From positions 1-64,000 of the forward strand of contig JAUIKY010000004.1 of the NCBI GenBank assembly GCA_030430535.1: DNA of 64,000 nucleotides, read 5' to 3'. Numbering within the stretch: position 1 is the stretch's first letter; each line of letters begins with the position of its first letter. The notes beneath the pieces are model-generated. The model worked only from the letters and a program-made list of their open reading frames with translations. It had not been told where the DNA came from and made no database searches. The DNA is from Bacteroidia bacterium (GTDB lineage: Bacteria > Bacteroidota > Bacteroidia > Flavobacteriales > Flavobacteriaceae). The position numbers and the translations under genes were made by a program. Shown here one piece after another: positions 14,892 through 20,962 of the stretch.

Positions 14892-14901
14892 ATTTTAATA
14901 A

Positions 14902-14920
14902 AGATAAATTTGTCCTATTT
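14902..14920 (+). promoter_or_regulatory. candidate Rrf2/NsrR-like operator upstream of rrf2
   Basis: AGATAAATTTGTCCTATTT; shares RGATnnnnTTRTCYTATTT with sites at 15409-15427 and 20944-20962. Confidence 0.55.
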
Positions 14921-14959: not shown

Positions 14960-15394
14960 ATGTTTTCAAAAGCTTGTGAATATGGTATAAAGGCAGCCAT
15001 ATTTATTGCAACCAAATCTTATGAGGGCCAACGTGTAAGCCCCAAAGAAATTGCAAGCGAAATTAATTCGCCCCAAGCTTTTACTGCCAAAATTTTACAG
15101 GCACTGGTTAGAAACAACGTAATAAATTCCATAAAAGGGGCTTACGGCGGTTTTGAAATAGAAAAGCATAGAATAGCCCAGGTTAAATTGGCCGAAATAG
15201 TAAATGCCATTGACGGCGATAGTATTTATAGTGGTTGCGGATTGGGGCTGGAAAAATGTGATGAAAACCATCCCTGCCCTGTACACGATAAATTTAAAGG
15301 GGTTAGGGAAGAGTTAAAAATGATGTTAGAAAATACCACTTTAGAAGAATTAGCACTTAACATAAAATCTGGGACCTCATTTTTAAGGGTTTAA
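14960..15394 (+). CDS. Rrf2 family transcriptional regulator, NsrR/IscR-like, with three clustered Cys
   Basis: MFSKACEYGIKAAIFIATKS, wHTH, and CGLGLEKCDENHPC (C-x6-C-x5-C) Fe-S-type motif. Confidence 0.93.
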   Translation: MFSKACEYGIKAAIFIATKSYEGQRVSPKEIASEINSPQAFTAKILQALVRNNVINSIKGAYGGFEIEKHRIAQVKLAEIVNAIDGDSIYSGCGLGLEKCDENHPCPVHDKFKGVREELKMMLENTTLEELALNIKSGTSFLRV

Positions 15395-15408
15395 AAAAAT
15401 TTGAATAT

Positions 15409-15427
15409 AAATAGGATAAAAACATCC
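15409..15427 (-). promoter_or_regulatory. candidate Rrf2/NsrR-like operator upstream of ric
   Basis: AAATAGGATAAAAACATCC on +; reverse complement GGATGTTTTTATCCTATTT fits the shared motif; 16 nt before the ATG at 15443. Confidence 0.5.
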
Positions 15428-15442
15428 GAAATAAATAATATT

Positions 15443-16180
15443 ATGGAAATATTAAGCAATAACACCCAAAAACAAATCGGTCAATTTGTGGCCGATGATT
15501 ATAGAACAGCTGCTATTTTTAGCAAATACGGTATCGATTTTTGCTGTAAAGGGCACAGAACTATCGAAGAGGTTTGTAATAAAAAAGGGATTGATGCCAA
15601 TCAATTATTGGATGAACTTGAAGCTTTGTTAAACTCGAAAACCGACCAATCTATCGATTATAAATCTTGGCCCATGGATTTGTTGGTAGATTATATTGAA
15701 AAGAAACATCACAGGTACGTGGAAGAAAAAGTACCGGTGTTGCGTCAATTTTTAGATAAGTTATGCCGAGTGCATGGAGAAAGGCATCCTGAACTGTTTC
15801 AAATTAATGAACTTTTTACGGCTTCGGCAGGAGAGTTGGCCGCCCACATGAAAAAGGAGGAATTGATTCTGTTTCCTTTTGTAAAGAAAATGGTTTCGGC
15901 TGTAATCAATCAAGGTGGAGTGGAAGCACCACATTTTGGAACGGTTGAAAACCCCATTGCCATGATGATGGAAGAACACGATAACGAAGGCGAACGTTTT
16001 AGAAAAATAGCAGAGCTTACCAATAATTACAATCCGCCCGCCGACGCGTGTAACACTTATCGTGTAACCTTCGCGATGTTGGACGAGTTTGAAAAAGATT
16101 TGCATCTTCACATTCATTTAGAAAACAATATTTTATTCCCTAAGGCAATAAAACTAGAACAGCAGTTTACAAAAGAATAA
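15443..16180 (+). CDS. ric: iron-sulfur cluster repair di-iron protein (Ric/YtfE/ScdA family)
   Basis: ScdA_N motif DYRTAAIFSKYGIDFCCKGHRTIEEVC followed by hemerythrin-like His/Glu motifs (HHRYVEEK, HMKKEELILFPF, HDNEGERF, HIHLENNILFP). Confidence 0.93.
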   Translation: MEILSNNTQKQIGQFVADDYRTAAIFSKYGIDFCCKGHRTIEEVCNKKGIDANQLLDELEALLNSKTDQSIDYKSWPMDLLVDYIEKKHHRYVEEKVPVLRQFLDKLCRVHGERHPELFQINELFTASAGELAAHMKKEELILFPFVKKMVSAVINQGGVEAPHFGTVENPIAMMMEEHDNEGERFRKIAELTNNYNPPADACNTYRVTFAMLDEFEKDLHLHIHLENNILFPKAIKLEQQFTKE

Positions 16181-16220
16181 CTGTTGCATAGCAACCTTTA
16201 AAGCTAGTTTTATATTTTTA

Positions 16221-16256
16221 AATTCCAGAGAGGCCAACTTTTCTGGAATTTTTTTA
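16221..16256 (+). terminator. Rho-independent terminator downstream of ric
   Basis: AATTCCAGA (16221-16229) / TCTGGAATT (16242-16250) followed by T tract. Confidence 0.75.
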
Positions 16257-16309: not shown

Positions 16310-17512
16310 ATGCCTAAAAACCTTGTTGTAACCTGTTTAATCAATTTTTTAGTGGCCGCTTTAATGGGGGTGGTGTTGCGTTACGCATTTGTTGGCGAGG
16401 TAGGTTTCAACTTTCGGTTTTTAACACATGCGCATTCGCATTTGGCCATGTTGGGTTGGGTGTATTTAATGCTTTACGTATTGTTTGTGCATTTTTTTGT
16501 ACCTGAGAAAAAGGCTGTTTTCAATAGACTGTTTTGGCTCACCCAATTGGCTGTAGTTGGAATGATGTTCAGTTTTCCGGTTCAAGGGTATGCGGCAGTT
16601 TCCATTTCGTTTTCCACCTTGCACATTTTTTGCAGCTATTATTTTGTGTATTTAATTTGGAAACACCAAAAAACTGAACAGCCCGTTGCCGAAAAACTAC
16701 TAAAAACGTCATTGATTTTTATGCTGATTTCAACAATTGGTGTGTGGTGTTTGGGGCCTGCGGTTTCTATGCAGGGGCAAGCTTCGGCCTTTTACCAAAT
16801 TGCTATTCAGTTCTTTTTGCATTTTCAGTTTAACGGCTGGTTTCTTATTGCCGTTTTGGCTGTATTTTTTTATAAATTGAAATTGGAACCATCCCCAACT
16901 TTCAAGCGCTTTTTTCAACTTTTATTGGCTTCTACTATGCTAACCATGGCGTTGCCCGTTTATTGGTTTGTGCCTTTGAAAATATTCTTATGGATTAATG
17001 GTTTAGGCGTTTTATTGCAGTTGTTGACCTTGGTGCTTTTAATTAAATTGATAAAACCATATCGAAAGTCATTCATAAAAAACAACACGAAACTTACCAT
17101 TGCTGTTTTTTGTTTTGCTTTGGTTAGTTTGGTGCTTAAAATGGCACTGCAATCGCTATCTCTGGTGCCCGAAATTGCCGCTGCGGCTTATCAACAGCGC
17201 AACTTGGTTATCGGGTTTATCCATTTGCTGATGCTCGGAGCCATTACCGGGTTTTTGTTCGGTTTTATTTTGCAAAGCAGGTTGACTAATTTCAATTTTA
17301 TTCTTAAACTTAGTCTGCTCCTTTTTATTTTGGGATTTGTGCTAACCGAATTGCTGTTAATGTGGCAAGGGGTAATGCTGTATTTTGGAGTGGGCATTTT
17401 GTCAAATTATTTCATACTGCTGTTTACATCGAGCACACTTTTGCCTTTGGGTATTTTAGGGATTACAGTTAACATTTTAAAAAGAAAGATATATGGAACG
17501 GAAACCTCTTAA
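16310..17512 (+). CDS. polytopic membrane protein with heme-copper-oxidase-like histidine-bearing helices, function unknown
   Basis: 400 aa, many hydrophobic helices; FLTHAHSHLAMLGWVYL, STLHIFCSYY, FFLHFQFNGWFL, GFIHLLMLGAITGF. Confidence 0.75.
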   Translation: MPKNLVVTCLINFLVAALMGVVLRYAFVGEVGFNFRFLTHAHSHLAMLGWVYLMLYVLFVHFFVPEKKAVFNRLFWLTQLAVVGMMFSFPVQGYAAVSISFSTLHIFCSYYFVYLIWKHQKTEQPVAEKLLKTSLIFMLISTIGVWCLGPAVSMQGQASAFYQIAIQFFLHFQFNGWFLIAVLAVFFYKLKLEPSPTFKRFFQLLLASTMLTMALPVYWFVPLKIFLWINGLGVLLQLLTLVLLIKLIKPYRKSFIKNNTKLTIAVFCFALVSLVLKMALQSLSLVPEIAAAAYQQRNLVIGFIHLLMLGAITGFLFGFILQSRLTNFNFILKLSLLLFILGFVLTELLLMWQGVMLYFGVGILSNYFILLFTSSTLLPLGILGITVNILKRKIYGTETS

Positions 17513-17957
17513 ACGACATAAAGCCTTGCAACCCCTAAGCCGCGAACATCATCACGGTTTGCTTTTGTCTTGGAAAATAAGAATGGGATTAAACAAAAAC
17601 GTAGAAGCGCACCGCATCGGGAGATATGCTCTTTGGTTTTACAAAACCCATTTAATTCCCCATTTTGAAATGGAAGAACAACACATTTTCCCCATTTTGG
17701 GAAGCGACCATAAATTGTTGAAACGCGCTTTGGCCGACCACAGACGGTTGGGGCGATTGTTTGCAGCAGAAATTGAGCATGTTGAAACACTCAGTAAAAT
17801 AGAAGAAGAACTGGATAATCATATTAGATTTGAAGAACGCGTATTGTTTCCGGAGATTCAAAACGTAGCGACTGAAGCACAATTATTGCAAATTGAAAAA
17901 ATCCATCGGCCCGATGAAAAATTTGAGGATAATCTGAATGATGAATTTTGGAAATAA
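17493..17957 (+). CDS. hemerythrin domain-containing protein
   Basis: HHHGLLLSWKIR, HFEMEEQHIFPIL, DHRRL, HIRFEERVLFPEIQ; overlaps preceding gene by 20 bp. Confidence 0.88.
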   Translation: MERKPLKRHKALQPLSREHHHGLLLSWKIRMGLNKNVEAHRIGRYALWFYKTHLIPHFEMEEQHIFPILGSDHKLLKRALADHRRLGRLFAAEIEHVETLSKIEEELDNHIRFEERVLFPEIQNVATEAQLLQIEKIHRPDEKFEDNLNDEFWK

Positions 17958-17967
17958 TTTTCCGAAG

Positions 17968-18678
17968 TTATGGGGTAACTTTTAAGATACTCTCAATAGT
18001 CGCTTGGTTGTCAACGCCCAAACCTTCCTGTTGATGCACCAGTTCGCCTTTTGCATCAAACACCGAAATGATGTTGGAATGCGAAAAATCTATCGGAGAA
18101 ATTTCTTTGTACTTAACCGAAAGTACGTTGGCAAATTCACGAACACCGCTTTCGGTGCCCTGTAAAAATGTCCATTGTGCGCCGTCCATTAGGTTTTCTA
18201 TGGCAAAGGCTTTTAGTTTTTCAGGCGTGTCGGTTTCTGGGTCGATGCTCACCATAATAAATTGGATATTTTCAATTTTATCGTCCGGAATTTTACTTTC
18301 AATATTCCGCATATCGGCCACCAATCTGGGGCAAGCGGCTTTGCACGAGGTGTAAATCATCACCATTACCAAAGTTTTTCCTTTTAGGTTTTCCAACTGA
18401 ATGGTTTCGTTTTCCTCGGTATGCCATGTAGAAGTGAGGTTAAAAATGGAAGCCTCGGAAATGAGGCCATCATCAATTGCTTTTTCAGAAGAGTTTTCAA
18501 TAGGCTGTAATTCCATTTTACAAATGGGGCAGCTTCCGGTTTCATTATAGGTTTTTGAGCCTTCACATTGCATGGGGCATTGGTAAACCTGTGCCGTTTG
18601 GTCTTTTTTGCCCGAATTGCAATTTTGGAGCATAAATAGGGCAAATAATATAAAGGTGATATGTTTTAGTGATTTCAT
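17968..18678 (-). CDS. SCO1/SenC family copper chaperone lipoprotein with N-terminal heavy-metal-binding motif
   Basis: Lipobox LQNCNSG; YQCPMQCEGSKTYNETGSCPICKMELQP; TSCKAACPRLVADM (CxxxC); IDPETDTPEKL. Confidence 0.92.
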   Translation of the reverse strand: MKSLKHITFILFALFMLQNCNSGKKDQTAQVYQCPMQCEGSKTYNETGSCPICKMELQPIENSSEKAIDDGLISEASIFNLTSTWHTEENETIQLENLKGKTLVMVMIYTSCKAACPRLVADMRNIESKIPDDKIENIQFIMVSIDPETDTPEKLKAFAIENLMDGAQWTFLQGTESGVREFANVLSVKYKEISPIDFSHSNIISVFDAKGELVHQQEGLGVDNQATIESILKVTP

Positions 18679-18684
18679 AATGGG

Positions 18685-19458
18685 TTATTTTACAATGTCT
18701 TTTACGCAACGGAATCCCAAGTTTTTCATCGAATATTTTGCTTTTAAACTGCCACGGATGGCGTAGCGCATAAAGGCAGCATAGTTCATCAAATCGGTGG
18801 CGTTAACAGCGGCACTTCCGCAGAACAAATTTGAGTCTTTGTCCACATCCTTTCTCGATTCGCCCGTAATCAAAACCGAGTTGAAGTCCAGCGTCCATTC
18901 CCAAACCAAACCGTGCATATCGTAAACACCCCAAACATTTTTTTGGGTTTTTCCAATAGCGTTTTGGTTGGTTCGTGGCGTTTCGTACCACGCCAAAATC
19001 TGTTGGTTGTATGATGGTTTGTTTCGCGCATCTTTGGTGGTTTCGTCGGCCATGGCTACATATTCCCATTCATCAACGGTGGGCAATCGCTTGCCTTGGC
19101 ATTCGCAATAGGCTTTGGCTGCAAACCATGATACGTAGGTGACCGGGCTGTTGGGGTTTTCAATCGCTTTCAATTCTGAATGGCTTTTCCAGTTGGACAG
19201 ATAGCTTTTGTCTGCAAATAGTGAAATGACGTTGTTTTTCTGCCATTTGGGATATTTTTGAACAAAGGCCATGTAATCGGCGTTGGAAACGGGGTAAACA
19301 TCCATTTGAAAATCGTTCACTTCAACTACTGTGGAATCGCGACCGTACAACGGAATGTAACGACTGCCTTTAATGAAAACCATACCTTCAGGCTGGGCAT
19401 AAAGCCCCATTTGAAACACTAATAAAACAAACATTAATCTGAAGGCTGGAGCTTTCAT
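18685..19458 (-). CDS. nirV: formylglycine-generating enzyme (SUMF1) family protein, NirV-like
   Basis: NSPVTYVSWFAAKAYCECQGKRLPTVDEWEYVAMAD, VWEWTLDF, NLGFRCV; same operon as nirK. Confidence 0.75.
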   Translation of the reverse strand: MKAPAFRLMFVLLVFQMGLYAQPEGMVFIKGSRYIPLYGRDSTVVEVNDFQMDVYPVSNADYMAFVQKYPKWQKNNVISLFADKSYLSNWKSHSELKAIENPNSPVTYVSWFAAKAYCECQGKRLPTVDEWEYVAMADETTKDARNKPSYNQQILAWYETPRTNQNAIGKTQKNVWGVYDMHGLVWEWTLDFNSVLITGESRKDVDKDSNLFCGSAAVNATDLMNYAAFMRYAIRGSLKAKYSMKNLGFRCVKDIVK

Positions 19459-19468
19459 AATTCTCTAT

Positions 19469-20914
19469 TTATCGATTTTTTACTTTATCTACCATGGCTT
19501 TGGTAACTACCGTTTTATTGTTGTCCCAACTGTTGTAAACATAAGTGAGTACGTTGGCGATTTCTTCAGAAGACAACATTTGGCGGGTCATAACACTGTT
19601 GTATTTTTGGCCGTTTACGGTAATTTCGCCGGTTAATCCATTAACAACGGCGTTTATCGCTCTATTCACATCGGCATTCAAATAATCTGATTTTGCCAAT
19701 GGCGGAAACGCATTGGGAACACCTTGACCCTCGGCTTGGTGGCAAGCAAAACAGGTTTGCATGTAAATTTGTTTTCCGAATTTCATTTGTTCGTCCAAAT
19801 TTTTTGCGGGTATTTCGGCTTCTACAATTTCATCGGTGGTTGGCATTTCTTGAATTCCGCCGCCTTCCGGAAGGTAAATATCGTCCCGCAACTCACCCGA
19901 ATATATTTTTTTATCCTCTTCGCCTTCCACTTTCAGCATGCCCAGCGCCCCTTTGTTAAAAGCCCTGAAGATGGAGTGGTCTACCAAAATAAAGGTTCCG
20001 GGTACATCAACCGTAAATTCTACGATGGCGGCACCACCAGCGGGAATCAAAGTGGTCTGTACGTTTTCGTTTATTTTGTCGCCACCTTCAATGTGTACTT
20101 TGTCAAATATTTCACCAATAACATGAAACGAAGACACCAAACCGGGGCCGCCGTTGCCCACAAAAAGCCTCACCGTTTCGCCTACTTTAGCCGTAATAGC
20201 ATTGTCGCCCGTAAGTGAGCCAACACTTCCATTGAATACGACGTAATCGGCCTTTTCGTCAACGGCTTTTTGCATATCGAAGGGTTGCAGGCCGCGTTCG
20301 CCGTTTTTTCCTTTGGTATAAAAATCGCCCTGCATGATGTAGTATTCTTTATCGACAATAGGCAAACCGCCTTCGGGTTCAACCAAAATCAACCCGTACA
20401 TGCCATTGGCAATGTGCATGCCCACGGGTGCTGTGGCACAGTGGTAAACGTAAAGTCCGGGATTTAAGGTTTTGAACGAAAATGTTTTTTCATGACCGGG
20501 TGCCACAAACGACGATTCGGCGCCGCCACCAGGGCCAGTTACAGCATGCAAATCGATGTTGTGGGGCAATTTGTTGTCGGGGTGATTTTGCAGATGGAAT
20601 TCCACTTCATCACCCACGCGGGTTCTGATAAAACTTCCGGGCACGGTGCCTCCAAAGGTCCAATATACATAAGTAACCCCATCGGTCATTTCGCCCTCCT
20701 TTTCAAGGATTTCCATTTTAACGATTAGTTTCTTTGCTTGTCGTCTTCCAACGGGAGTGGGTACATGGGGTGGCGATGTGAGTTCGGCAACCATTTCCCT
20801 GCTTACAGGAATGTCGGCCGAATTTTCATAGTGCTTTTCTTTGTTGTTAAAGCATGAAATAAGCAAAAAAGTGCTGCAAAATGTCAGGGTAATGTGAAAG
20901 AGCGAACGTTTCAT
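19469..20914 (-). CDS. nirK: copper-containing nitrite reductase with C-terminal cytochrome c domain
   Basis: [44 protein letters not shown] copper-site motifs; C-terminal [25 protein letters not shown] (CxxCH). Confidence 0.93.
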
Positions 20915-20943
20915 GTTATCAATTTTTAGTGATTTTTAAATTA

Positions 20944-20962
20944 GGATAAGATTGTCTTATTT
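20944..20962 (+). promoter_or_regulatory. candidate Rrf2/NsrR-like operator upstream of nirK
   Basis: GGATAAGATTGTCTTATTT; also contains palindrome ATAAGA-TTG-TCTTAT (20946-20960). Candidate nirK -7 box TAAATTTG on - strand at 20972-20979. Confidence 0.55.

Follow-up and report, generated by a model that had tools for sequence, protein, structure and literature searches.

A conserved, unannotated membrane protein with a predicted oxidase fold accompanies nitric oxide genes in Flavobacteriaceae

In heme-copper oxidases (HCOs), the transmembrane helices TM2, TM6 and TM10 bear the heme and metal ligands. Relatives of these oxidases and of nitric oxide reductases (NORs) with one or three 4-TM units are said to have been grouped by Pei and colleagues in 2014 as 'HCO homology' (HCOH) proteins; the three-unit members, NnrS included, reportedly have mostly two conserved His residues and a single heme, and many HCOH proteins are reported to act in denitrification or NO detoxification. 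NnrS is a heme membrane protein of NO regulons in Proteobacteria, where it occurs with dnrN/Ric and nsrR (PMC1274295, PMC11526790), and it spares the iron pool from dinitrosyl complexes without removing NO (PMC9246220). In Bacteroidota NnrS is rare (4/297 over the PF05940 cut-off).

Here we describe HPMP, our label for the 400-aa product of positions 16310-17512 (+) of the window, the whole 64,000-nucleotide stretch that was analysed. HPMP is conserved but lacks annotation, and it probably belongs to a class already known, the non-catalytic oxidase-fold proteins of NO metabolism. On balance, we think it somewhat probable that it is a non-catalytic HCO/NOR relative with one low-spin heme, serving an NnrS-like role in NO tolerance in Bacteroidota.

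The HPMP gene, its family and its fold

The coordinates and length of the ORF given in the original prediction, which had been made from the letters of the window, proved exact, and all four His motifs that it quoted are found in the translation. The ORF is intact, with an ATG start and a stop codon, and lies among the following features:

14960 to 15394, + strand: Rrf2-family regulator, probably the NO-responsive regulator of the cluster as judged from domain search and neighbourhood
15401 to 16180, + strand: Ric/YtfE/ScdA-type di-iron Fe-S cluster repair protein (TIGR03652, 253.6 bits, cut-off 204.7)
16220 to 16251, + strand: terminator-like hairpin between Ric and HPMP, a consensus match only
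16310 to 17512, + strand: HPMP, 12-TM protein with a predicted HCO/NOR subunit I fold (ORF, AlphaFold, fold search and conservation)
17493 to 17957, + strand: hemerythrin-domain protein (Pfam, PF01814), overlapping the 3' end of HPMP by 20 bp
19469 to 20914, − strand: Cu nitrite reductase NirK, C-terminally fused to a cytochrome c domain (TIGR02376, 357 bits, cut-off 296)

Homologues of HPMP were found in 69 of 201 Flavobacteriaceae genomes and at no fewer than 525 GTDB loci, indicating that it is a real gene; F. johnsoniae is one of the carriers. A Bacteroidota-wide profile search placed the family in 53 of 248 genomes, four of these being weak matches to single-unit proteins of ~150 aa. No Pfam or NCBIfam model matched HPMP above its cut-off. 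Below the cut-offs, DUF3054 of Pfam gave an E value of 0.03 and DUF2871 (PF11070) matched residues 4-98 (E 0.0076, 17 bits, curated cut-off 27.4), a weak match to one HPMP unit only that may reflect a common 4-TM unit. The COX1 profile (PF00115) did not match HPMP and reached one divergent homologue at E 0.73; searches of the PDB by sequence, with the single query and with a profile, gave no match even at E 10, and a viral fold library gave nothing below E 0.5. A relative on a Tunicatimonas plasmid, the only annotated one encountered, is labelled 'hypothetical protein', and a literature search, whose scope did not take in the 2014 work of Pei and colleagues, found no paper naming the family.

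An AlphaFold (AF2) model built from 45 aligned sequences reached a pLDDT of 94.1 and a pTM of 0.92 and contains 12 transmembrane helices, as counted from the DSSP string. In a Foldseek search of the PDB with this model, ranks 1-18 were all HCO or NOR catalytic subunits, led by NorB of P. aeruginosa (3o0r chain B, E 1.4e-6, TM 0.76) and followed by CcoN, another cNOR, aa3 and qNOR, with the first unrelated match at TM 0.15. As modelled, HPMP thus belongs to the heme-copper oxidase superfamily at the level of fold, and its description in the original prediction as a degenerate heme-copper oxidase/NO reductase subunit I was right in this respect.

Direct hhalign comparisons of HPMP with cNOR, qNOR and CcoN are weak (probability 32, 8 and 6, respectively), so that sequence homology to the HCO/NOR proteins rests on two bridging families. 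Unit 1 of HPMP (TM1-4) gives an end-to-end match to a 4-TM family of 150 aa, with a probability of 94, and aligns with TM9-12 of cNOR and of qNOR with probabilities of 62 and 57. The second bridge is a family of HCO-like membrane proteins of 430 aa, which hhalign relates to HPMP with a probability of 87 and to CcoN (TM9-12) with a probability of 95. Members of the 430-aa family were seen at L228:1658-2941 and L229:1429-2709, and at another locus (L232) the C-terminal end of such a protein is closely followed by a single-unit 4-TM protein of 150 aa.

Conserved residues and the predicted heme site

Conservation was assessed over 169 HPMP homologues, with the distant clade included, and the principal His positions map to the window by codon arithmetic as follows:

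16427 to 16459, + strand: THAHSHLAMLGW motif, residues 40-50 at the start of TM2, with the invariant H42 and H44
16820 to 16822, + strand: codon of H171 (TM6), kept in the main clade only
17222 to 17224, + strand: codon of H305 (TM10), invariant, the predicted second low-spin-heme ligand

Six residues, R24, H42, H44, G93, Y94 and H305, are invariant in 169/169 homologues, and H171 and E347 are each present in 162/169, being confined to the main clade. The conserved His residues are H42, H44, H305 and H171; the His of 'STLHIF' (H105), quoted in the original prediction, is variable (H in 117/169). The finding that would have spoken against that prediction, homologues lacking the histidines, was looked for and not encountered. 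The placement of H42 and H44 in TM2, H171 in TM6 and H305 in TM10 falls on the ligand-bearing helices of the oxidases.

A full-length profile alignment of HPMP 6-392 to CcoN 15-455, with a probability of only ~5, sets H42 on the low-spin-heme His of TM2. Of the two paired His residues of TM10, the second, which is the other low-spin ligand, is matched by H305 and the first, the high-spin-heme ligand, by F303; at that alignment probability the register is likely, short of proven. In this register, all 169 homologues carry F, Y, W or L at position 303 and none has the high-spin-heme His, and for the TM7 His-His pair no HH occurs within residues 190-261 in 165/169 homologues. HPMP plausibly binds one bis-His low-spin heme b, and, judged from the aligned homologues, the classical reaction centre of NORs and oxidases is gone. 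Lacking both the His-His pair of TM7 and a ligand for the high-spin heme, HPMP does not appear to be a classical reductase, and the reductase option of the original prediction finds no support in that form.

The TM6 residue H171 may correspond to a CuB/FeB His ligand, at an uncertain register. Internal-repeat alignments of HPMP (probability 38-61) superpose H44, H171 and H305, in which case H42 would be an extra His two residues before H44, as in the HxH motif of oxidases. H44, which is invariant, and H171 are unexplained by a single bis-His heme and count against a one-heme protein. In the distant clade (L234-L236, L238 and L240), N175 and H171 are replaced by Glu at 175 and mostly His at 167. 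Glu 175 occupies the position of the NorB FeB-Glu by motif alignment, and the replacement of H171 together with this Glu makes a second site possible.

Gene neighbourhood, co-occurrence and a candidate operator

The NO context that had been proposed for HPMP is strong and is conserved across 80 homologous loci and 201 genomes. Neighbours in the 80 loci are Rrf2 (65/80), Ric (61/80), which adjoins HPMP in most of them, NirK and FGE (35/80 each), SCO (33/80), qNOR (26/80) and hemerythrin (22/80), and unsupervised clustering of neighbours, with names assigned by inspection, gave nosF-, nosY-, nosD-, nosL- and nosZ-like genes in 14-21 loci. The genes for NirK-cytochrome c, SCO and the FGE-like protein stand together as a conserved set of three (33-35/80 loci), found here downstream of HPMP on the opposite strand (window 17968-20914 (−)).

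Across the 201 Flavobacteriaceae genomes, 45 have both HPMP and NOR, 24 HPMP only, 4 NOR only and 128 neither (odds ratio 60, p 1.4e-22, p-values ignoring phylogeny), and the odds ratios of HPMP with NirK and Ric are 44 and 45. At least one of NOR, NirK and Ric is present in 67/69 HPMP genomes. Neither NOR nor NirK was detected in 18 of the 69, and Ric is present in 16 of those 18, suggesting that HPMP tracks NO exposure and repair and not one enzyme. A complete, one-contig genome of the same genus (G161) has HPMP and Ric with no match to NOR or NirK, so the HPMP-Ric pair can persist without denitrification enzymes. HPMP as the missing NOR of its own genome was rejected, since a 766-aa qNOR gene is encoded elsewhere in that genome.

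The strong association with NOR and NirK, and the adjacency of nirK or qNOR in many loci, would also suit an electron-transfer or assembly partner of an NO or nitrite reductase: the low-spin heme would pass quinol electrons to a periplasmic acceptor (for instance the NirK cytochrome c domain), or HPMP would help NOR to mature, and a low-spin heme of the predicted kind, unaccompanied by a reaction centre, would fit an electron carrier. However, the 18 HPMP genomes without detected NOR or NirK, including the complete genome of the same genus, and the four NOR genomes without HPMP argue against such a partnership, which we consider possible but doubtful.

The 20-bp overlap with the hemerythrin gene (start 17493), from which coupled expression had been proposed, exists here and is not general, given that an adjoining hemerythrin is found in 22/80 loci, often without overlap. 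This neighbour and the predicted heme site would be in keeping with a membrane sensor of NO or redox state that passes a heme-NO signal to hemerythrin or another partner. Against this, HPMP has no output domain within its 400 aa, Rrf2 is already the likely sensor of the cluster and hemerythrin is not beside HPMP in 58/80 loci, so a sensor is unlikely; no positive evidence emerged for the sensor or channel role raised in the original prediction.

When upstream regions were compared, a palindrome, AAGAYANNNNTRTCTT, emerged ahead of Rrf2, Ric and NirK genes, in most cases at a distance of 50-75 bases. In the window, two copies, each with one mismatch, were assigned by this comparison:

14901 to 14916, + strand: candidate Rrf2 operator AAGATAAATTTGTCCT, 59 bases before Rrf2
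20943 to 20958, − strand: candidate Rrf2 operator AAGACAATCTTATCCT, 44 bases before nirK

With at most one mismatch, AAGAYANNNNTRTCTT lies upstream of 33/66 Rrf2, 18/35 NirK and 9/26 qNOR genes and of 23/471 control genes, a contrast that is no independent test because the palindrome was derived from the same loci; several of the 23 control genes look like norC and nosZ or are divergent neighbours using the same site. The palindrome is also found upstream of norC-like and nosZ-like genes in relatives. In the genome of the window a one-mismatch copy stands before the distant qNOR (C76:25549-25564), and the AAGAYANNNNTRTCYT form has five occurrences, a number not above that expected from the reversed-pattern control; two lie within coding sequences (SusC-like and GroEL), and the other three precede Rrf2, nirK and the qNOR gene elsewhere in the genome. 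From these patterns, AAGAYANNNNTRTCTT may be regarded as a candidate operator through which Rrf2 would act on denitrification genes in flavobacteria. The upstream region of HPMP contains no good copy of its own, which counts against an NnrS-like role; given this and the terminator-like hairpin after Ric, co-regulation of HPMP is no more than a possibility. A second palindrome, TTGTTT-N2-AAACAA, located 39 bases before HPMP, was dropped as an operator, being present in 0/80 homologous loci.

A possible NnrS-like role and competing explanations

HPMP resembles NnrS in having 12 transmembrane helices and in occupying the same niche, adjoining Ric (61/80) and Rrf2 (65/80), but no profile match between the two is detectable. 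Orthology was rejected given the absence of a PF05940 match and an hhalign probability of 0.4 to a small NnrS set; a search of the genome of the window with PF05940 found no NnrS, and the control genomes gave none either. With NorB, CcoN, qNOR and aa3, HPMP shares the 12-TM fold, His residues in TM2, TM6 and TM10, the denitrification context and, in the likely CcoN register, the predicted low-spin-heme ligands, whereas it lacks the high-spin-heme His and the TM7 His-His pair, is shorter (400 aa) and has no significant direct sequence match to them. HPMP probably falls within the HCOH class as reportedly defined, with an oxidase fold made from 4-TM units and incomplete catalytic ligands, although it has three invariant His residues and a nearly invariant fourth, compared with the two said to be usual there.

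As HPMP occurs almost exclusively alongside NO genes, it is probably an NO-protective heme protein. In the mechanism that we propose, the 12 helices would be arranged as three 4-helix units, and H42 (TM2) and H305 (TM10) would between them hold a heme b, whose occupancy and position we infer, close to the outer face of the membrane, the high-spin heme and the CuB/FeB reaction centre having presumably been lost. HPMP would be produced together with Ric and the enzymes of denitrification and, like NnrS of Proteobacteria, may lessen the harm done by NO to iron and Fe-S proteins without catalytic NO reduction.

Since HPMP is a polytopic membrane protein for which heme is predicted only, it could instead be heme-free, its conserved His residues serving the transport of protons, metals or small molecules; the predicted location of two invariant residues, H42 and H305, where a superfamily of the same fold has its low-spin-heme ligands makes this improbable. 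An enzyme that reduces or otherwise consumes NO in an unusual way, with an active site rebuilt from H44, H171 and E347, would find some encouragement in cNOR NorB as the nearest fold match, in the invariance of H44 and the 96 percent conservation of H171, and in the distant clade, whose TM6 Glu 175 coincides by motif alignment with the FeB-Glu of NorB. Nonetheless, neither the high-spin-heme ligand nor the His-His pair of TM7 has a counterpart, a true NOR is already present in 45/69 HPMP genomes and the distant clade lacks both H171 and E347, so we judge this enzyme very unlikely. It is highly unlikely, too, that HPMP is an NO-reactive metalloprotein combining a heme at H42/H305 with a rebuilt second site (H44 and H171, or H167 and E175 in the distant clade), which would consume or shuttle NO without using the classical binuclear centre.

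The proposal that HPMP protects against NO without reducing it bears on a protein that tracks the NO and denitrification genes of Flavobacteriaceae as tightly as Ric, yet is without a family model. If HPMP is the Bacteroidota counterpart of NnrS, it would supply a missing part of the NO defence of a major group of partial denitrifiers, and would offer a tractable oxidase-fold protein in which one heme has been kept and catalysis dropped. HPMP is also relevant to the question of how the oxidases arose from 4-helix units.
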